Origin: Spartobacteria bacterium
GTDB lineage: Bacteria; Verrucomicrobiota; Verrucomicrobiia; Chthoniobacterales; UBA6821
Direction of reading: 5' to 3'
DNA length: 35,098 bases
Assembly: GCA_947471565.1 (NCBI GenBank)
Contig: CANIVT010000005.1
Span: forward strand, 73,014 to 108,111
Shown: piece after piece, positions 5,379 to 33,193 of the stretch
How positions within the stretch are numbered: position 1 is the stretch's first letter
Layout of the letters: each line of letters opens with the position of its first letter
Translations under genes and position numbers: made by a program
Notes under the pieces: generated by a model
What the model was told of the DNA's origin: nothing
The model's input: only the letters and a program-made list of their open reading frames with translations
Database searches by the model: none

Positions 5379-5932
5379 GAACTGGATTTCTCTTTGTCCG
5401 CCACCTTGCGTGCGGGATTACCGGCCATGACGGAATTTCTTTCCACACTCCTCATCACCACCGAGCAGGCCCCCAGGACCGCCCCCTCACCAACATTCAC
5501 GCCGGGTCCCACGAAGGCATCGGCACAGATCCAGGCACCGTCTCCGATAGTGATCGGCGGCTTCAGAAGCAGCATGGCCCTGTCTCGGTAATCATGGCTT
5601 CCAGCGCAGAGATGGGCTCGCTGAGAGATCGTCACCCGTTCACCGATCGTGACCCTCCCCAGATTGTACACCAACGCATCGAACCCGATCGACGACCAGT
5701 CCCCCACCTTCAGATTCCACGGAAGGAAGATCCGGACACTCGGATGGATTTGGACATGACGGCCGATCTTTGCGCCAAAGAGACGCAGCAAGGCAGTCCT
5801 CCATCCCCAGAGAAGCCGAGGACTGAATCGGAACAGGGGCCCTGCCATCCCCCAGAGAACCCTCCCGAGCAGCTCCGTCCGGGAATATTTCCGCGCACTG
5901 CGGTTGGATGAAATATCAAGGACGTCGCTCAT
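5375..5932 (-). CDS. WcaF-like hexapeptide O-acetyltransferase
   Basis: 185 residues. Left-handed beta-helix acetyltransferase that should move acetyl from acetyl-CoA to a sugar hydroxyl in the cytoplasm. After a ~50-residue N-terminal region typical of WcaF-type proteins, hexapeptide repeats run from about 55 to 160 (for example IGRHVQIHPSVRI and VTIGERVTISQ). The catalytic-type histidine is in GSHDY (111-115), and GNPARKV (171-177) is the family's C-terminal coenzyme A loop. Starts at ATG 5932, overlapping the upstream glycosyltransferase by 17 bases. It is the only soluble acetyltransferase beside four membrane acyltransferases. WcaF-like rather than a serine acetyltransferase because of the N-terminal region and context. 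Confidence 0.9.
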   Translation of the reverse strand: MSDVLDISSNRSARKYSRTELLGRVLWGMAGPLFRFSPRLLWGWRTALLRLFGAKIGRHVQIHPSVRIFLPWNLKVGDWSSIGFDALVYNLGRVTIGERVTISQRAHLCAGSHDYRDRAMLLLKPPITIGDGAWICADAFVGPGVNVGEGAVLGACSVVMRSVERNSVMAGNPARKVADKEKSSS

Positions 5933-7061
5933 GGGACTGGTTGATGATCAGATTCTTGTATCCCTTCAGCATCGACTGCGCGATTCCTTTCCAAGAGAAA
6001 TCCCGCGCGACCCATTCCCTGCCCCTCTCTCCCATCAACTTGAGGGAGTGAGACTGGTTGGATGTGGCCTCTTGAAGGGCCCTCGCGAGATCATCGACCG
6101 ACGGATCAACCCACCATCCGGATTGATGCTCCACGAGCCCCCTCCAGGGAGCACCGGTGGTAGTGATCACCGGAAGACCAGAGGCGAGCGCCTCTGCGAC
6201 CGAGATTCCGAAATTCTCGCTATGAGTAGGGAGGATGAAGAGGTCGGACTCCCGGTAGAGTTCCCATTTCCTTATATCTGAAACGGCATCCTCCAGCGAC
6301 CAGACATCTTCCAGTCCAGCTGCCTGAACCATCGAAGCAATCTCGGAGCGATGGCCTGCCTCATCGGGTCCGACCACTCTCATTCTCCATCCCTCGGGAC
6401 GAACTCTGCCCCACGCCTCCACCAGCATCGGCAGCCCTTTCTTTGGATGAATCCGCCCCAAAAAAAGGGCCGTTTTGAGGGATTCCCCTCTCCGCCCTTC
6501 ATCCTGAATCCCGAATCCCGTTTCCTTCCGCTCCTTCGACTTTCGTCCTTCGACTGTCGACTCATCCCAAGGAATCTCCACCCCATTCGGCGCGATGATC
6601 ACCCGCATCTTCAGTCCAAGCTTCCGGAATTGGTTCGCCTCGCTCTCAGCAGTGGCATGCAGTGCCGCCGCATCGAGAAGATCTCTCCTCTGATACAGCC
6701 ACCATGCCAATCGCTTCTTCCACTTCCTATGGGCCATGGCCCATGGCTCCAGCATCCCCCTAGGGCTCACGATCCTGGGTATACCGGCATCCCTGGCCCA
6801 TTTGGCGATGCGATGATTCGAGGGCAACCAGACCCCGTGATCATGGATGAGGGAGACCCCCTTGAGATCGGGAGATTCCGTAAAGAAGACAGAAATCCCT
6901 TTGTCCGTGAGAATACGCGACCACTCTGGGAGAACCCTCGATGCGACCCATAGTGCAACATCCAACCCCTCCTCCTTCAGAGCGATCAGCAACTGCGGCA
7001 CGGATCGCGCAGGCCCACCGCTGACAGGATCAAGAGAGGCGATGGCATGGAGGACTCGCAT
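5916..7061 (-). CDS. GT4 glycosyltransferase with repeat-encoded interdomain linker
   Basis: 381 residues. N-terminal start with GGPARSV (15-21) and a conserved IVSPRGMLEPWAM (98-110) seen in one GT4 branch; C-terminal domain starts at ALFLGRIHPKKG (198-209); donor-site block ENFGISVAEAL (282-292) then GLPVITT. Between the domains, about 167-194, a charged segment is encoded by heptamer repeats (6480-6563). The insertion lies at the same structural point as in the gene ending at 3169. The product should add one sugar to the growing repeat unit. ATG 7061, 38 bases after the upstream gene; no Shine-Dalgarno. Its stop lies inside the acetyltransferase start region. Confidence 0.9.
   Translation of the reverse strand: MRVLHAIASLDPVSGGPARSVPQLLIALKEEGLDVALWVASRVLPEWSRILTDKGISVFFTESPDLKGVSLIHDHGVWLPSNHRIAKWARDAGIPRIVSPRGMLEPWAMAHRKWKKRLAWWLYQRRDLLDAAALHATAESEANQFRKLGLKMRVIIAPNGVEIPWDESTVEGRKSKERKETGFGIQDEGRRGESLKTALFLGRIHPKKGLPMLVEAWGRVRPEGWRMRVVGPDEAGHRSEIASMVQAAGLEDVWSLEDAVSDIRKWELYRESDLFILPTHSENFGISVAEALASGLPVITTTGAPWRGLVEHQSGWWVDPSVDDLARALQEATSNQSHSLKLMGERGREWVARDFSWKGIAQSMLKGYKNLIINQSHERRP
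6480..6563. repeat. In-frame heptamer tract in a GT4 gene
   Basis: Two heptads (TGAATCC, CGAATCC) at 6505-6518, then four in register at 6534-6561: CTTCGAC, TTTCGTC, CTTCGAC, TGTCGAC. It encodes roughly 28 residues at the domain boundary. The CTTCGAC core is shared with tracts in four other genes. Confidence 0.75.
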
Positions 7062-8984: not shown

Positions 8985-9129
8985 TTCCCACCTTCCCACC
9001 TTCCCACATTGACGCCACTTCCTCCCGGAAGCTGTGGCGCCCTTGCAGGGCTACCTCCGGCAGTCGTCCGCGCATCTTCCCAGATGCTTGGTTCCCACTT
9101 TTTAACCTTTTAACCTTTCACTTTCTAAC
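8985..9129. repeat. Octamer tracts TTCCCACC and relatives
   Basis: Three octamers at 8985-9008 (TTCCCACC twice, TTCCCACA) and, from 9092 to 9129, a mixed 7/8-base tract (TTCCCAC, TTTTTAAC, CTTTTAAC, CTTTCAC, TTTCTAAC). TTCCCACC is one base from the TTCACACC unit of the large array at 12.8 kb. The second part overlaps the 3' end of the GT4 gene and contains its stop codon (9102-9104). Between them (9009-9091) I see no gene. Confidence 0.7.
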
Positions 9130-10493
9130 TCTCCCCCATCAACCCTTATTTCTTTCACCGCCTCCACCACTTTTTCCGTGGCGGCTTCAAAGGAGAACGC
9201 TGAGATGAGTTCCTTGGCGTTCTCTCCCATCTTGCGCAGGCGGACCGGATCGCTGAGGGCCTCCCGCAGCACACGCCCGAGGTCATCACGTTCCCCTGCC
9301 TTAAAGACCCATCCCGTCTCCCCCTCGCGGATCAGATCGGGCCCGCATCCCACGTGGGAGCTGACGATAGCGGGCAGGCCGAGATTCATCGCCTCGTTCA
9401 CGGCAAGCCCCCAGGTTTCCCCTCTTCCTTGGGAAGGAAGCACCAGCACATCCCCCGTCGCATAGACCCTCGGCATTGCGGACTGATTCTGGAACGGGGC
9501 GAAGAACACCTCCCGACCGAGATGCTCCCCGGCCATGGCGCGCAATTCCGCCTCAAGCGGCCCAGAACCCACAAAGAGGAGGACGGGATTAGATGAGGGT
9601 CGAGAGTCGAAGGTCGAGAGTCGAGGGCTGAAGGATACCGCATCTTGGTTTGTAGCTCCCTGACATGGCTCTGGACATTCGACCTTCAAGGTTCGAGGGC
9701 TGGAGGATATCCCCTCTGCACGCATCTCCCGATGACTTGGCGTTGGACCTTCGACATTCGACGTTCGACTCATGAGCGCCAAAAACGCCTCCAACAGATC
9801 CTGTGGGCGCTTCTTATTTTCTAGCTTGCCAGCAAAGAGGACCACGGTTGCTCCTTCAGGGATTCCGAGTTCCCTCTTCCAGTTCTGCGCCTCTTGACCA
9901 GCCTGAGAAGCCGCAGAGCGGAACCGCTCGTTATCGATGCAGTGAGAAACGATCCGGATCCTCTTCTGCGGAACACCGCTACCACGGAAATACCCCACCG
10001 AGGCCTTTCCCACCGCCAGCACCCGGTCGAACCGACTGAAAATCACCCGGCGGAGGAACCGGGCAAGTTGGGGTTTGATCCCCGTGACGGGAGACAGTTC
10101 GTGCGAGTCTCCCCTGAAAAGAATCGGGATCTTCCGCAGTCTCGGTGAGAAAATCAGTCGCAGGAGACTCTTGTAGTTATAGCCGATCAGCAGGATCGCA
10201 TCGGGCTTCCACTCAGCGATCGCCGCCACCAGTCCCGGATTATCCAGCCCCTTGAAATGATGCGTCCCCGGATCCCTTGAGACATTCGGAACGAAGGTGC
10301 TCTCATACCCCTCCATCAGCGGCACATCCCATTTGAAAGAAGTCCCGAAGACGGGATCCCTTTTCTCAGTCACTCCAAAGTCCCAGAGATAGAAAACTTT
10401 CAGCCTCAGCTCTGGCCGGGACGCCAGATCCCGGAACCATGGGGAGTAATACTGGATCGGGTGGGAGACGACGATGGCCAGACGCGAGGGCAT
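9102..10493 (-). CDS. GT4 glycosyltransferase with long repeat-encoded insertion
   Basis: 463 residues, long for GT4. N-terminal domain opens VVSHPIQYYSPWF (8-20), a start seen in a recognisable GT4 group; the C-terminal domain begins TVVLFAGKLENKKRP (216-230); donor-site block GRGETWGLAVNEAM (356-369) followed by GLPAIVS. Residues about 242-303 are a foreign low-complexity segment between a helix and the next strand (PVLLFVGSGPLE), encoded by a repeat element at 9585-9770. The last dozen residues and the stop are also encoded in a repeat tract. Removing the insertion restores the usual ~400 residues. ATG 10493, 15 bases after the polymerase gene. Confidence 0.88.
   Translation of the reverse strand: MPSRLAIVVSHPIQYYSPWFRDLASRPELRLKVFYLWDFGVTEKRDPVFGTSFKWDVPLMEGYESTFVPNVSRDPGTHHFKGLDNPGLVAAIAEWKPDAILLIGYNYKSLLRLIFSPRLRKIPILFRGDSHELSPVTGIKPQLARFLRRVIFSRFDRVLAVGKASVGYFRGSGVPQKRIRIVSHCIDNERFRSAASQAGQEAQNWKRELGIPEGATVVLFAGKLENKKRPQDLLEAFLALMSRTSNVEGPTPSHREMRAEGISSSPRTLKVECPEPCQGATNQDAVSFSPRLSTFDSRPSSNPVLLFVGSGPLEAELRAMAGEHLGREVFFAPFQNQSAMPRVYATGDVLVLPSQGRGETWGLAVNEAMNLGLPAIVSSHVGCGPDLIREGETGWVFKAGERDDLGRVLREALSDPVRLRKMGENAKELISAFSFEAATEKVVEAVKEIRVDGGELESERLKG
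9585..9770. repeat. Palindromic heptamer element inserted in frame in a GT4 gene
   Basis: Left end 9599-9633: five heptads with GTCGARR/GCTGAAG cores. Right end 9742-9769: GTTGGAC, CTTCGAC, ATTCGAC, GTTCGAC, i.e. the same family in reverse complement. The middle (9670-9704) has five more heptads centred on ACCTTCAAGGT, close to the midpoint of the whole element. The element could fold as one imperfect hairpin. It encodes about 62 residues without a stop. Confidence 0.75.
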
Positions 10494-12648: not shown

Positions 12649-12810
12649 GTGCTCATCTTACTACTAAAGGCAACATCCGTCTAGCCAGCTTCCTACATGG
12701 ATACCGATTCCCTCCAAGACAACTTAAGTCCCCTGCGAGTTTGCGTCGCAGGCACAGGAGTTCCGTACTCTACTTCCCATGGGATAAGCCCATCGGGGGG
12801 ACTCCAAGCC

Positions 12811-12970
12811 TTCACACCTTCACACCTTCACACCTTCACACCTTCACACCTTCACACCTTCACACCTTCACACCTTCACACCTTCACACCTTCACACCTT
12901 CACAGCTTCACACCTTCACACCTTCACACCTTCACACCTTCACACCTTCACACCTTCACACCTTCACACC
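12811..12970. repeat. 20-copy perfect octamer array (TTCACACC)
   Basis: Units of exactly eight bases from 12811 to 12970: 20 copies, 19 identical and one TTCACAGC at 12899-12906. Its right end overlaps the 3' end of the GT4 gene: the last seven codons or so and the TGA stop (12948-12950) lie in the array. On the minus strand every frame meets TGA within three units; on the plus strand no frame ever stops. The remaining 162 bases (12649-12810) between the array and DUF2442 show no gene. No spacers, so not a CRISPR. Confidence 0.95.
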
Positions 12971-14378
12971 TAAGCACAGATCTGAAGAACTCCGCTAACT
13001 GCCCCGCCTGCGCCCTCGCCGTATACGGGGCAAAGGCTTCCCGATTCAGCGACACATCCCTCTCATACTGACTACCCGCCAACCACTCAGCCCTGATCCG
13101 CTCTGCGATACTCTCCACCCCCTCCCCGGTTGCAAAAGGGATCACCGTGCTACCTCCGACAGAACGGATCAGGCTGACAACCGAGCTGTTCTCATGGAAA
13201 ACGGCGAGAAGCGGCTTCCCGGCCAGCAGATAGGGATAGATCTTGGAGGCCGTGTAGGCGGGATCATTGGAGCCTGGCACCACCAGTGCATCGGCATCGA
13301 GGAGGCATCGGAGTGTCTCGGAGTAGGGAATCCGGTCAGGATGCTCCGAGACGATCTCCCCTAGCCCCTCCTCGATGGCAATCGGCTCAATCGACTTCAC
13401 CCCCCTGCCAGCGGCGGCATACGACGTCCCAATAAAGTGAATCCTTAGATTTTTTAACAATACTTTATCTTGGTCGCCGTATTGTTTGAGGGCTTTAAAA
13501 AGCCCTCTCACCGCCATCTCCATATCCTTGCCGCCGCGCCCGACATAAACCCAGTGACGGAAACCATCCGCCGGATCAAAGACCCGCTGGGTGATGCGCT
13601 CGGAACACACCCGCTCGAAATCACGGTCATCCCCAGGGAATGGAATAATCAAAGAGAGGAGGCTCTTTGATTGAGTCGAGAGTCGACTGTCGATCGTCGA
13701 GAGCTTTTTGAATGATTCGTAGTATTGCTCATCTGATGCTGACTCTCGACCCTCGACCCTCGTCCTTCGACCCCGCGATAGGATTTTCAGAAAATCATAA
13801 CGACCTTCTAACTGCCTTGGATACGCATCCGAGACACTCGTGATCCCACTGCACTCTCGTAGCACTCTGGGCTCATCGCGGCGGCTGAGCCAGCTAGTGA
13901 TGGCATACTTGAGCCTCCCTCCCGGCGGTTTCACCTCGGGATGCTCCCGGTAGTAATCGCTCACCCACGGATCCTGATAATCCATCACGAAGGGGACTCC
14001 GTGACGCTTCTTCCAGTAGGGGCCCAATACATGCACGCCGAACTGCGTCGTGGAGAAATAGACGAGGTCGAAGCCTCCCCTCCGTAGCAGTTCATTCCCC
14101 TTGCGTCGCAGGGCTCCCATCGCCCGGAAGCTCAGAATGCCAAGTCCTGGGATCTTACCCCATTTCAGCCCCAGCGCCTTGACACGATGGATCGGCACCT
14201 CAGATGGAAGACCCGGCACCAGCCAGGGATCGCGCGGAAAAGCGACCTGCCCGGCCTCAACCGCCAGCACCTCCGCCTCCACCCCTGCCTCCTTGAGATA
14301 GGGCAGGATCAGACGTACCCTCTGCATATCCGCCGCATTGGTAGGCGGGAAGTGCGGGGAAACGATCAGGATTTTCAT
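12948..14378 (-). CDS. GT4-like glycosyltransferase with repeat-encoded insertion
   Basis: 476 residues. N-terminus ILIVSPHFPPTNAADMQR (3-20) is a GT4-type acceptor-domain start, with VMDYQDPWVSDYY (131-143) also typical. The C-terminal domain begins near WVYVGRGG and includes LLDADALVVPGSNDPAYTASKIYPYLLAGKP-like donor-side features, with SKIYPYLLAG resembling the WbuB group. Residues about 199-239 are a charged, serine-rich insertion encoded by paired heptamer tracts (13662-13784), placed at the domain boundary. The C-terminal residues and stop codon come from the octamer array. ATG at 14378 overlaps the upstream acyltransferase stop as ATGA. Likely adds a sugar to the repeat unit; specificity unknown. 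Confidence 0.82.
   Translation of the reverse strand: MKILIVSPHFPPTNAADMQRVRLILPYLKEAGVEAEVLAVEAGQVAFPRDPWLVPGLPSEVPIHRVKALGLKWGKIPGLGILSFRAMGALRRKGNELLRRGGFDLVYFSTTQFGVHVLGPYWKKRHGVPFVMDYQDPWVSDYYREHPEVKPPGGRLKYAITSWLSRRDEPRVLRECSGITSVSDAYPRQLEGRYDFLKILSRGRRTRVEGRESASDEQYYESFKKLSTIDSRLSTQSKSLLSLIIPFPGDDRDFERVCSERITQRVFDPADGFRHWVYVGRGGKDMEMAVRGLFKALKQYGDQDKVLLKNLRIHFIGTSYAAAGRGVKSIEPIAIEEGLGEIVSEHPDRIPYSETLRCLLDADALVVPGSNDPAYTASKIYPYLLAGKPLLAVFHENSSVVSLIRSVGGSTVIPFATGEGVESIAERIRAEWLAGSQYERDVSLNREAFAPYTARAQAGQLAEFFRSVLRCEGVKV
13662..13784. repeat. Inverted heptamer element inserted in frame in a GT4 gene
   Basis: Four heptads with GTCGA core at 13675-13702 face four reverse-complement heptads at 13744-13771 (TCTCGAC, CCTCGAC, CCTCGTC, CTTCGAC), separated by 41 bases. 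The arms can pair over most positions. The element encodes about 41 residues at the interdomain boundary. Confidence 0.78.
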
Positions 14379-22083: not shown

Positions 22084-23256
22084 TTACGTTACAGCATACT
22101 TCCATGCCTTTCCGAAATACCATGGCTTGCTGTCGGAGACATAGTGCTGAAGCACTCCCTCTCCATTGACTGTCTGCTGCTCTGTTGGGAAGGTAATGTA
22201 TTCTGAGCGAGGCATGACTGTCGGTGAAAGCTTTGCCGCAAGCATAGCCACAAGAGCCTGCTCAAGAAAGTAACTTGTCCCTTCTCGCGCCAAGAGAGTC
22301 CGGCACCAATGCTCCAGTTCCTCCCAATCGAGGCTTTCACTTCGCAGCCCACAGATCCCAACATTCAGAAGCGGCGGAATCGGGGCTCTAGCCAACTCCT
22401 CCATCAGGGAGCGAGAGTAGCCATAGGATTCCTCACAGTCGGTCATTAATAAAGGTGAATAGGCTGTAGGCTTGAGGCTATTTGGCGATAAGATACCAGA
22501 GTCGTCAGAAGAGAGCACGGACTCTTGCGACTTCTGACTACTTACTACTGATGGCCGGCCGCCTTCCATACCTTCGTACTTTACACCTTTATACCTTTCA
22601 CTTGCAGCGCCATGGGCTGCATCCCACCAATCGAGGATCGCCTGCGGTTTACGGAAGATGAGCATATCCGAGTCGAGCACGAGTTTGACCCCTGTTGAAC
22701 CCAGATGGATGTCCGTAAGCTTCCGGATATTGATATAATCAGCCCAGCGCTGACGTAGAATCGGGAAGCGTTCCACAGGCAGGAGTGCCTCAATGCGTTC
22801 CTGCACATCAGATTTGTGAACGGTCACTCCCTGAGGGAAAAGCCTTCGGAGACCGGCATGATGCTCATCCGAGAGGGTCCCATCATCAACGAGATTGAGG
22901 ATTACCTCCCTCCCCGAGTGCTTCGCAAAGGTCCAAGCACAAAAGGCTGTCTGATACCAGAAGCGCTTACCGGTCAGGAACCAGAGTGCGACCGGAGCAT
23001 TGTCGATGGTCGATGGTCGATGGTCGAAAGACTTTTTCTCATCCCCCAAGATGCTTATTTCAGATTTCAGATTTCTTATTTCAGCTTTTCTTATCGGCTC
23101 TAGCCGATATGCCGCTTCCTCCATTTCCCTCATCCAGGAATCGCAGAGGAAATAAGCTCGCGGCCCCCAGCGACACATCCGGGCGAACTCATCCTTCGGA
23201 CGGCGATAAAGCACTGTCTTGGCATCACTGAGATACTGTCGGAATATCTTACTCAT
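22084..23256 (-). CDS. Putative GT-A (GT8-like) glycosyltransferase with two repeat-encoded insertions
   Basis: 390 residues. Supported by KLVLDSDMLIFRKP (191-204), whose DSDM is a plausible metal-binding DXD, by LNVGICGL in the middle and by HYVSDSKPWYFGKAWKY at the C-terminus, which resembles the HxxxxKPW end of GT8 enzymes. Two stretches look foreign: about 56-87 (GTCGATG and TTTCAGA heptads) and about 221-268 (CTTTACAC-like words), the second shortly after the DXD. Without them the protein would be near 310 residues. The start (ATG 23256) overlaps the upstream gene by eight bases. Less certain than the other glycosyltransferases; it could be a catalytically altered relative. Confidence 0.68.
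   Translation of the reverse strand: MSKIFRQYLSDAKTVLYRRPKDEFARMCRWGPRAYFLCDSWMREMEEAAYRLEPIRKAEIRNLKSEISILGDEKKSFDHRPSTIDNAPVALWFLTGKRFWYQTAFCAWTFAKHSGREVILNLVDDGTLSDEHHAGLRRLFPQGVTVHKSDVQERIEALLPVERFPILRQRWADYINIRKLTDIHLGSTGVKLVLDSDMLIFRKPQAILDWWDAAHGAASERYKGVKYEGMEGGRPSVVSSQKSQESVLSSDDSGILSPNSLKPTAYSPLLMTDCEESYGYSRSLMEELARAPIPPLLNVGICGLRSESLDWEELEHWCRTLLAREGTSYFLEQALVAMLAAKLSPTVMPRSEYITFPTEQQTVNGEGVLQHYVSDSKPWYFGKAWKYAVT
22453..22596. repeat. In-frame repeat-like insertion after the DXD of the GT8-like gene
   Basis: Encodes about 48 residues. It contains a run of related words such as CTTCGTA, CTTTACAC, CTTTATAC and CTTTCAC near 22575-22596, and GACTTCTGACTAC-like words near 22530-22550. 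More degenerate than the other tracts. Confidence 0.5.
22996..23091. repeat. In-frame heptamer tracts (GTCGATG and TTTCAGA) in the GT8-like gene
   Basis: GTCGATG three times plus GTCGAAA at 23002-23029, then TTTCAGA twice, TTTCTTA, TTTCAGC and TTTTCTT at 23058-23092, all in strict seven-base register. It encodes about 32 residues near the N-terminus. Confidence 0.85.
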
Positions 23257-24235
23257 GGTTTTTCAATGAGCCTTTCTCAATATGCTCTCGACGATCGTCC
23301 CTCGACTCTCGACAAAGCATTGCCCTTCCTTCAAATTGCCCGATAGCTCCCTGCCAGCGAATCTGCTCAACGGGGCCGCGCCATGCCTGATTTGTAAACC
23401 ATGCCTTGGCACTCCTTAATGGAACGCTCCATCTTGGAATTGCCGACCAAGGACGGATTCCATGGATATCGAGCACCTTGACGAAGTCTCGGAAAGATGC
23501 GCGGGCGATCCGTTTCTGATAATTAAGCGTGAGCCTTCCGGGAGGGATGATATGAGTCAGGGAAAGCTTAGGGAGATAACCAAGATCCCATCCAGCACCT
23601 AGAGCCACCAGATTGATATCGTTATCCTCTCCAGAAGTTAGAGCCGATCCAGTGCGCCCAAGCGATGTTCTGCGACCGTCTCCCGTCACAAGGTCAGCCC
23701 ACAACTGAATCGCGGATTTACGGGTGACCATCCCTGCGCCAATGGGAGCATGAACCGGATAAGTTCGTTCCTCCACTTCCATCCAACTCATGATCTCTTC
23801 CTCATCCCCATGATCGCGGCATCCCAACGGGGCGAGGTCGGGGCGATACCAATCCTCCGGCGTCTCAAGATACTCGGGAATGGATTTCCCCCCTGCAATA
23901 CCGAGCCTCGGGTATTTCCTAAAGGACTCGATCGCATTCACCAAGTAATCAGGTAATAAGAGATTATCATCATCACACCAGACGAGTAACTCTCCAACTG
24001 CTTCCTTGATGGCACGCAATCGGGCATGTGTCAGTCCCAACTTCTCCTCACGGATCACACGCCCCCTAGGATGCCAGGAAATAAGATCCGATGATAGGGG
24101 GCTAGGGCTCGCATTGTCGATCAGAAGCAGTTCCCACTGGTCAAAGGGAAGTGTTTGAGCCTTCAGTGCATCCAGAGTTCTCTCCAAAATCGTTATCTTT
24201 GGAGAATAGGTGGGTATAATTATAGAAAGGGACAT
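23249..24235 (-). CDS. GT2 glycosyltransferase with repeat-encoded C-terminal tail
   Basis: 328 residues. GT-A core: SLSIIIPTYSPK at the start, LLLIDNASP (36-44), then LLVWCDDDNLLLPDY (83-97) with CDDDN as the metal site, and a later GAGMVTRKSA and SGEDNDINLVALGAGW, the acceptor-side ED motif. Probably an inverting sugar transferase of this pathway. The last ~25 residues are charged and encoded partly by four heptads (23286-23313) of the CTTCGAC family, so they are probably an added tail. ATG 24235; its stop overlaps the downstream gene by eight bases. Confidence 0.9.
   Translation of the reverse strand: MSLSIIIPTYSPKITILERTLDALKAQTLPFDQWELLLIDNASPSPLSSDLISWHPRGRVIREEKLGLTHARLRAIKEAVGELLVWCDDDNLLLPDYLVNAIESFRKYPRLGIAGGKSIPEYLETPEDWYRPDLAPLGCRDHGDEEEIMSWMEVEERTYPVHAPIGAGMVTRKSAIQLWADLVTGDGRRTSLGRTGSALTSGEDNDINLVALGAGWDLGYLPKLSLTHIIPPGRLTLNYQKRIARASFRDFVKVLDIHGIRPWSAIPRWSVPLRSAKAWFTNQAWRGPVEQIRWQGAIGQFEGRAMLCRESRDDRREHIEKGSLKNHE
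23286..23313. repeat. Heptamer tract in the 3' end of a GT2 gene
   Basis: Four heptads in register: TCTCGAC, GATCGTC, CCTCGAC, TCTCGAC. Same family as the insertions in three GT4 genes; here it lies near the gene's end. Confidence 0.78.
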
Positions 24236-30787: not shown

Positions 30788-31188
30788 TTTAACGAGGAGT
30801 TGGGAGATGGAATCTAGGAGTTAGGGAATGCATGAGGAAGAGAAGGATTTTAGACTGAAGACTGCTAGGCTGTTAGGAGGATCCTGGAAGCAGTTGAAAA
30901 GTTAGAATGTAGAAAGGTGAAAAGAGGGCAGTGTGAAGGGGAAACTTGAACCGAGGTCGTGAGAAATCCGAGTTGGACTATCGTAGACAGCCCGGTAGGG
31001 GCGAGCTTAGCGAGAACGAACGAGTCAAACTTGAGACCTGATTCTGAGTCCGAGGGGCTGTTAGGTTTTTGGGAGGAAGGGGATTCGGAATTATGGATTC
31101 GGGAGTCAGAAGGGAGAACTGAATCAGGCTCTTGGGAAGGAGTCGGGAGTCAAAAGCCAGGATTAAGGAATAAATAGTGAAAAGTGAG
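30788..31188. other. 401-base gap: repeat words, no gene
   Basis: No supportable coding region. Degenerate 7-base words are scattered through it (AGGAGTT-, GACTGAA- and GAAAAGT-like), including a TAGGCTGTTAGGAGGA segment near 30866-30881 that recurs in part in the gap at 31.7 kb. The stretch at 30942-30962 resembles 34899-34919 (18 of 21 bases). An operon promoter should lie here or above the regulator, but I cannot identify one. Confidence 0.6.
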
Positions 31189-31700: not shown

Positions 31701-31812
31701 GACTGAAGACTGAAGACTGTTAGGAGGACGCGGAAGCTAGGAGCTAGGAGCTAGGAGCTAGGAGCTAGGAGCTAGGAGCTAGGAGCTAGGAGCTAGGAGC
31801 TAGGAGCTAGGG
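31701..31812. repeat. Heptamer arrays: GACTGAA (short) and GCTAGGA (10 perfect copies plus one variant)
   Basis: GACTGAA twice and a third partial copy at 31701-31719, then GCTAGGA in ten perfect tandem copies from 31736 to 31805 and GCTAGGG at 31806-31812. It lies upstream of the regulator gene, in its promoter or leader region, and all reading frames meet TAG within it. Confidence 0.95.
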
Positions 31813-31970
31813 GATGGGGGATTGGAGAACCCGAAGAGTTAAAATCGTTAGAAAGGTTGAATCGTTACAACGTGGAGATGGGGAGAAAGCGGAGTCGAAA
31901 GCAAAATGAAGAATGATGAATGAGAAACGGGAAGACGCGAAGGCCGTTAAAAAGTCAGAACGTGAAATAA

Positions 31971-32208
31971 GCTCGCGGGAACGAGCGCAAAAGGTGCGTG
32001 GGTACGCAGCTTCATCATACCGAAGGTAATCCTAGTCAAATACGAGGATGCCTGATCCGGGAGGATCGGCAGATAAAAGGCTACCGAAGTTAGCCCAGAG
32101 GAGGCGTCCGCCTAGGCGGATTTGCGGGAGCAAAGTGCCGTCAAAGGCGAAGTCTAGTGCCGATGGGAGGGGTGCTACCATCCCCCGGGCCTCCTTCCCC
32201 GCGAAGGA
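31971..32208. other. Hairpin-rich region, possible structured RNA or dispersed repeat
   Basis: Part of the 566-base gap 31681-32246. At least six perfect short stems: GCTCG/CGAGC (31971-31986), TGCGT/ACGCA (31995-32008), TACC/GGTA (32018-32028), GATCC/GGATC (32054-32067), a 14-base palindrome TCCGCCTAGGCGGA (32107-32120) and TCCTTC/GAAGGA (32192-32208). Composition differs from the A-rich gap before it. An open frame on the minus strand (32032-32220) is only 62 codons with no recognisable motif, so I do not call it a gene. Confidence 0.45.
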
Positions 32209-32817: not shown

Positions 32818-33193
32818 AACAGAGGAGAAACTGAGTCGAAGGTCAAGAGACGAGGGGCTAAAAAAGCTGAAACAGATAAGGCTGCAAAAGGCTCACAAAA
32901 AGGGAGCCACTGACTTGAGGGGAGATGTCCGGATAATGCTGCCGCCCTTGGCAACCGTAAGTGGTTTTACCAGCGGGGGTTCTGGATGGCGGGGCTGTAT
33001 GCTCACGAAAAGCAGGAGGCCGACTTGTTCAAAAATAATCGAACTCCGCGTTTGTTCAACTGGAAATGAACAAGGAGAGCGAATGCCCTAGTGAAAAGAT
33101 GTAACCCAAACCGTAGGCAAAGACCTTGGATGTGGCCGCGAAGCGGGGCGCGCCCGCCACCGCTTCCAGAAGAAAGCGGCGTCAAACCCAGGA
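32818..33193. other. 376-base gap: heptads, no gene
   Basis: At 32835-32855 are GTCGAAG, GTCAAGA and GACGAGG in register, close to the start of the gene at 32817. At 33136-33155 the sequence forms CCGC-GAA-GCGG and the palindrome GGGCGCGCCC. The rest shows no coding signal I can support. Confidence 0.55.

Follow-up and report, generated by a model that had tools for sequence, protein, structure and literature searches.

A GT4 glycosyltransferase gene of a Spartobacteria bacterium carries, in frame, a stretch of DNA built from seven-base words. We favour the reading, with a probability of about 0.6, that this insert represents one patch of the heptad-repeat DNA dispersed through its genus, grown in place in a tolerant surface loop by slippage and template switching and filtered for reading frame. 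The window, the whole stretch of DNA that was analysed, spans 35,098 nucleotides, and the features discussed here are collected in Table 1.

The in-frame heptad insertion first described in the initial annotation is borne out by its block structure, by word counts, and by alignment to homologues. Among 58 aligned GT4 homologues, taken from the same genus, other families of the order, other Verrucomicrobiota, Cyanobacteria, and Proteobacteria, none has the full insert segment; outside the genus residues ~245–302 have no counterpart, and no distant homologue carries the segment as a conserved part of the fold. The match to PDB entry 2JJM stops at query residue 242 (chain 238) and restarts at 304 (chain 243), reproducing exactly the expected gap at 242–303. 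The net gain is smaller than the ~62 residues originally proposed, however, being 162 bp (54 codons) relative to the homologue in genome G023 and ~57 codons relative to most homologues. In an AlphaFold2 model built from 44 sequences, the only segment of the chain with pLDDT below 50 lies between helix 230–248 and strand 304–308 of the C-terminal domain, the helix-to-strand position that had been assigned from the letters, and the insert is predicted to be the only disordered stretch of the enzyme. No stop interrupts the coding frame, as had also been noted, whereas each of the other five frames is closed somewhere in the insert; we argue from this that selection, and not composition, maintains the open frame.

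That these residues are an ordinary lineage-specific GT4 linker, with heptads arising by chance of composition, is hardly credible. G004, of the same genus, also has extra residues at this loop, but these are heptads themselves, forming a shorter and different insert with a GTCGAGC...GACTCTCGACT heptad pair; homologues outside the genus are short at the loop, and the words occur far above shuffle expectation. The shuffles and the RibD comparison described below together refute such a linker.

The insert consists of three heptad blocks with two cores between them. The GTCGARR words of the left block and the centring of the middle block near the midpoint are as first described; the right block does consist of reverse-complement heptads, but its word is NTTCGAC (with CTTC, ATTC, and GTTC all present) and not YTTCGAC, and the strict seven-base register claimed for the whole insert is kept within the three blocks and lost in the two cores. 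The arms are 72–83% complementary. With up to two mismatches allowed, the window has 25 occurrences of GTCGARRGTCGARR where 3.3 would be expected, a number reached by no shuffle, and the shuffles rule out chance or composition as the source of the heptads. Self-identity of the insert at a lag of 72 is 0.63 over 110 nt (best shuffle, 0.44), reflecting a 72-bp tandem duplication that the initial annotation did not mention and that, at 24 codons, kept the frame. The predicted fold is not unusually strong compared to shuffles (z of −0.9 as DNA and −0.7 as RNA), so the palindrome is better described as repeated words in both orientations than as a strong hairpin, and a strong hairpin as the basis of the insert is ruled out. 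A known RNA family is also ruled out, there being no Rfam match.

Table 1. Heptad-related features of the window (positions in the window; strand given where assigned)
Feature	Position	Strand	Remarks
GT4 glycosyltransferase gene carrying the insert	9102..10493	-	463 aa; Pfam Glycos_transf_1, E 1e-29; AlphaFold2 mean pLDDT 88.5
In-frame insertion	9588..9770		~residues 245-302; boundaries +/- ~10 bp; missing in homologues; pLDDT <50 at 254-294
Left heptad block	9599..9626	+	GTCGAGA GTCGAAG GTCGAGA GTCGAGG
Middle block	9674..9698 (about)		GACATTC GACCTTC AAGGTTC GAGG; centred on ACCTTCAAGGT at 9682-9692
Right heptad block	9744..9769	-	(G)GACCTTC GACATTC GACGTTC GAC; GTCGAAN on the minus strand
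Tandem duplication, unit of 72 bp (24 codons)	9620..9763		9620-9691 and 9692-9763; 48/72 identical
Second convergent heptad pair	13668..13775		In another glycosyltransferase-like gene (12948-14378, -); GTCGAGA GTCGACT GTCGATC GTCGAGA, 38-nt core, GACTCTC GACCCTC GACCCTC GTCCTTC GAC
AATCCCG heptads and CTTCGAC-type heptads	6501..6566		In a GT4 gene (5916-7061, -); linker between domains
GTCGATG heptads and ATTTCAG heptads	22999..23090		In ORF 22084-23256 (-)
Short CTCTCGA heptad run	23285..23313		Near 3' end of ORF 23249-24235 (-)
Near-perfect tandem array (CCTTCACA)x20	12809..12971		
Near-perfect tandem array (AGCTAGG)x11	31735..31811		
R1 copy	9009..9096	+	
Degenerate R1 copy	30939..31028	-	
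Degenerate R1 copy	31962..32023	-	
Degenerate R1 copy	32047..32144	-	
Degenerate R1 copy	33101..33185	-	

Judged by its words, the GT4 insert belongs to a class of heptad arrays, with words such as GTCGARR and CTTCAGY, that is dispersed in this genus and some relatives. The words are not confined to the insert: GTCGARRGTCGARRGTCGA has 19 exact matches in the bacterium's own genome, compared to three for the reversed control, and CTTCAGYCTTCAGYCTTCAG, which represents CTTCAGY triples, has 15 and none, respectively. In 435 kb of own-genome stretches there are 38 period-7 segments (one in shuffles) and 25 period-8 segments (none in shuffles), although heptad hits guided the choice of about half of these stretches, and of almost the entire first set taken from other genomes, so that the array densities are biased. 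Repeat periods other than 7 and 8–9 are near background, and an excess of period 7 is also seen in arbitrary contigs of G004 and G012. The tandem 7-nt unit is thus over-represented, and the same word recurs at many sites with a fixed core and degenerate positions, the features that define heptads of the Xanthomonas and Nostoc type. Many heptad words coexist in these genomes; GTCGARR words are plentiful in G004, G024, and G092 and most of the order lacks them, CTTCAGY words are almost restricted to the bacterium's own family, and in G024 TCGAAAC constitutes another spacer family with the same core. In the stretches covered, many of the arrays seem to be intergenic or to sit at the ends of genes.

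We also asked whether TCGA might be a special core throughout the phylum and rejected the idea: TCGA arrays are present in 19 of 388 genomes, but AGCT heptads, taken as a control, are roughly as frequent. Another verrucomicrobial genome, G254, is even richer in arrays, with 208 matches to a control pattern of five AGCTNNN heptads, and dispersed words of period 8 occur as well, among them GCGCAGAG and TTTTTAAC. Contigs of several relatives terminate inside or beside heptad arrays (L131, L132, L148, and L189/L193), and the assemblies therefore probably under-count them. Viral spread was considered as well: in viral contigs 114 stretches have the pattern, mainly as isolated hits, with some of them falling in coding steps of 21 nt; one 42-kb viral contig, IMGVR_UViG_3300021437_000038 (L305, L319, L330, and L341), has eight scattered GTCGARR triple-heptad sites.

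On the evidence of sequence comparison, heptads demonstrably enter conserved enzymes in frame, with examples in GT4, RibD, xanthine dehydrogenase, and a second glycosyltransferase. At the second glycosyltransferase site in the window (13668–13775), G023 has a single heptad block and G024 and G040 are empty, and in the xanthine dehydrogenase of G024 ~36 additional residues of heptad-bearing sequence fall between chain positions 724 and 731 of 2CKJ. The bacterium's own RibD has four CTTCAGY heptads, which add 13 residues to a loop; PDB relatives have no such heptads there, and in 11 other families of the order the loop is empty. Across twelve congeners the loop is empty in six (G005, G008, G009, G011, G014, and G015), contains CTTCAGY words in G000, G004, and G010 (+13 aa), CATTCCC/CATCACC words in G001 (+9 aa), and an inverted GATAGGA...ACTCCTA pair in G012 (+19 aa); G013 has the same words as G012, in a gene split there between contigs. 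The RibD tree places G004 and G013 as sisters (support 96/95), yet the two hold different words in one loop, so either the words were replaced or the loop was hit again. Empty sites in relatives, anticipated at the outset, are therefore found both for the GT4 insert and for other loops such as that of RibD. A small hairpin follows the RibD heptads at L118:3190-3260 and in the orthologues (G000, G004, and G010), with a changing stem (GTCCGCTTGCGGAC in G004), and is missing from the empty RibD sites.

These in-gene arrays could conceivably be contingency repeats, in which surface-glycan glycosyltransferases undergo phase variation, each being turned on or off as a 7-nt unit is added or removed. 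A heptad is not a multiple of three, so a change of one unit shifts the frame, several arrays in the window lie within glycosyltransferase genes, and heptanucleotide phase variation has been reported elsewhere. We nonetheless regard this as quite improbable, given that the in-gene arrays here are short (three to four units) and imperfect, which lowers slippage, that every complete RibD variant compared is in frame, and that neither RibD nor xanthine dehydrogenase is a surface contingency gene.

Over 171 units in 38 arrays, ~1.5% of GTCGA cells deviate (98.5% conserved, which is an upper bound because the array search favours conserved cores), and the last two positions of the GTCGARR unit vary in 40%, mostly between A and G. 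Within the genus, 28 of 69 adjacent units have the same spacer, compared to 12.2 when shuffled, as slippage predicts; in G024 the corresponding figure is 6 of 33 against 4.8 by chance, and with no excess of likeness slippage is not visible there. GTCGARR has no stop codon in any of the six frames, but about half of random 7-mers are also stop-free, and this is a help to tolerance, not a signature. The extreme position-specific conservation, with GTCGA fixed and RR free, together with the same core bearing another spacer family in G024, might be taken to mean that the arrays are putative binding sites in which GTCGA and a free two-base spacer are kept for a protein or RNA-binding factor, the coding insertions being by-products. 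We give this little credence, as array size, spacing, strand, and gene context all vary, a 7-bp step places successive sites on different helix faces, and the measured conservation is biased upward.

The palindromic arrangement raises the alternative of a discrete non-autonomous mobile element, of the MITE or Rickettsia palindromic element type, with heptad ends and a transposase acting in trans. Several places do have convergent heptad arms around a core, unrelated genes are hit in frame, empty sites exist, and copies of the structured repeat R1 are flanked by heptads in G004. However, the core of the GT4 insert has no second copy in its own genome, cores differ from site to site, and most arrays are single. 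Among 52 strict arrays there are nine neighbouring pairs within 250 bp (five convergent, none divergent, and four on the same strand), which makes inverted pairing a minority arrangement, and most arrays are unpaired and non-palindromic. We saw no clear target-site duplication, and the own genome, which is 97% complete, has no match to the REP-type Y1 transposase (PF01797), which rules out RAYT-driven REP mobility. A mobile element is thus unlikely. The idea of a discrete palindromic element fails on the unique core, on the non-palindromic form of most arrays, and on the different words in the same loop of related species; of the recurrence envisaged for the palindrome at many unrelated sites, only that of the GTCGARR words is realised.

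R1 is a structured repeat of ~85–92 nt (TTGACG ... GTCnnCCGCG ... CTTGGTT) with covarying stems and conserved linkers, and it has no match in Rfam. There are ~24 good copies in the own genome, it occurs in 15 of 16 species of the genus with at least 74 copies in G007, and it is rare outside the family. The R1 copies flanked by heptads in G004 have TCGA heptads beside them. We suspected from ACGCATCTCCCGATGACTTGGC that the GT4 insert was a degenerate R1 copy, but the R1 covariance model gives no match to it at E ≤10, whereas the copy at 9009–9096 scores 92 bits.

In the preferred reading, that of heptad-repeat DNA grown in place, a heptad seed would reach the site, 7-nt units would be gained and lost by replication slippage, and an inverted copy would be made or corrected through template switching between nearby arms. 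Such arrays would survive in a gene only if their total length were a multiple of three and free of stops, with purifying selection acting on the frame. Template switching is described as creating and maintaining hairpins (PMC8794818) and as underlying quasipalindrome mutations (PMC7202029). The insert most likely has no selected function, and in effect would resemble, by analogy, a Rickettsia palindromic element that adds a floppy loop to an existing protein. Several observations sit poorly with this reading: plain slippage with random mutation would not confine variation to two 40%-variable positions beside a 98.5% conserved GTCGA, the spacers of G024 show no sign of slippage, the fold is no stronger than in shuffles, and slippage does not explain the same word at many sites or the differing words of G004 and G013. 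We speculate that a trans-acting process could write or rewrite seven-base words at many sites, for example by adding units from a template in which GTCGA is fixed and the final two bases wobble; the RibD loop would then receive different words in sisters and the sites of a species would draw on a common vocabulary, but we consider such a process very unlikely.

Heptads are reported to be the most frequent simple repeats of medium length in many bacteria, which raises the questions of why the unit is seven bases and how a single word reaches dozens of sites. Within one genus the RibD loop offers an orthologous position that may be empty, filled, or filled with other words, so that the origin and turnover of heptads, and of new disordered protein loops, can be followed by direct comparison. 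Heptanucleotide STRR repeats and small dispersed repeats are known in cyanobacteria.

The closest precedent is the GGGAATC heptads of Xanthomonas. The Xanthomonas and Nostoc repeats (GGGAATC / GGGGA(C/T)T, or (GGGANTN)n) have a fixed core and degenerate positions at 180-odd dispersed sites, with 70–75 convergent inverted pairs per Xanthomonas genome and lengths that differ between close relatives; the non-intergenic share is 7–11% in Xanthomonas and about a third in Nostoc (PMC4692102). The arrays described here are alike in their seven-base unit, fixed core with degenerate positions, dispersed sites, and convergent inverted pairs, and the suggestion that the insert may be undescribed therefore holds only in part. 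They differ in the TCGA-based word, the verrucomicrobial host, the coexistence of several words, and the in-frame insertions in conserved enzymes at sites that are empty in orthologues. GTCGARR also does not provide G-tracts able to form quadruplexes, having at most GGG across a unit boundary and not in every unit, and without regular quadruplex G-tracts we view these heptads as a related kind but not the same repeat.

More broadly, among long simple sequence repeats with units of 5–11 nt, heptads are the most frequent class in many genomes (Mrazek 2007, as cited in PMC4679880), and the TAACTGA repeats of Beggiatoaceae are mostly intergenic, near start codons (PMC4679880). Both resemble the present arrays in the prominence of period 7, in words common to many sites, and in patchy distribution over species, but inverted in-frame inserts are not among the features given for TAACTGA in the text consulted. 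Rickettsia palindromic elements, palindromes of ~150 bp tolerated in frame in unrelated genes (Ogata 2000, 2002, as summarised in PMC10969869), are a valid precedent for in-frame insertion in unrelated genes with empty sites in relatives, as in GT4, RibD, xanthine dehydrogenase, and the second glycosyltransferase, but not for the sequence as a whole: they form families with shared sequence and peptide, whereas here the core is unique and only the heptad word is shared. Tandem repeats of Borg elements that fall within genes generate new disordered regions and change rapidly (PMC9879509), and the heptads are alike in both respects; in-gene Borg repeats, however, sit on giant extrachromosomal elements and are perfect at the amino-acid level, under strong selection, and those described here are imperfect 7-nt units.
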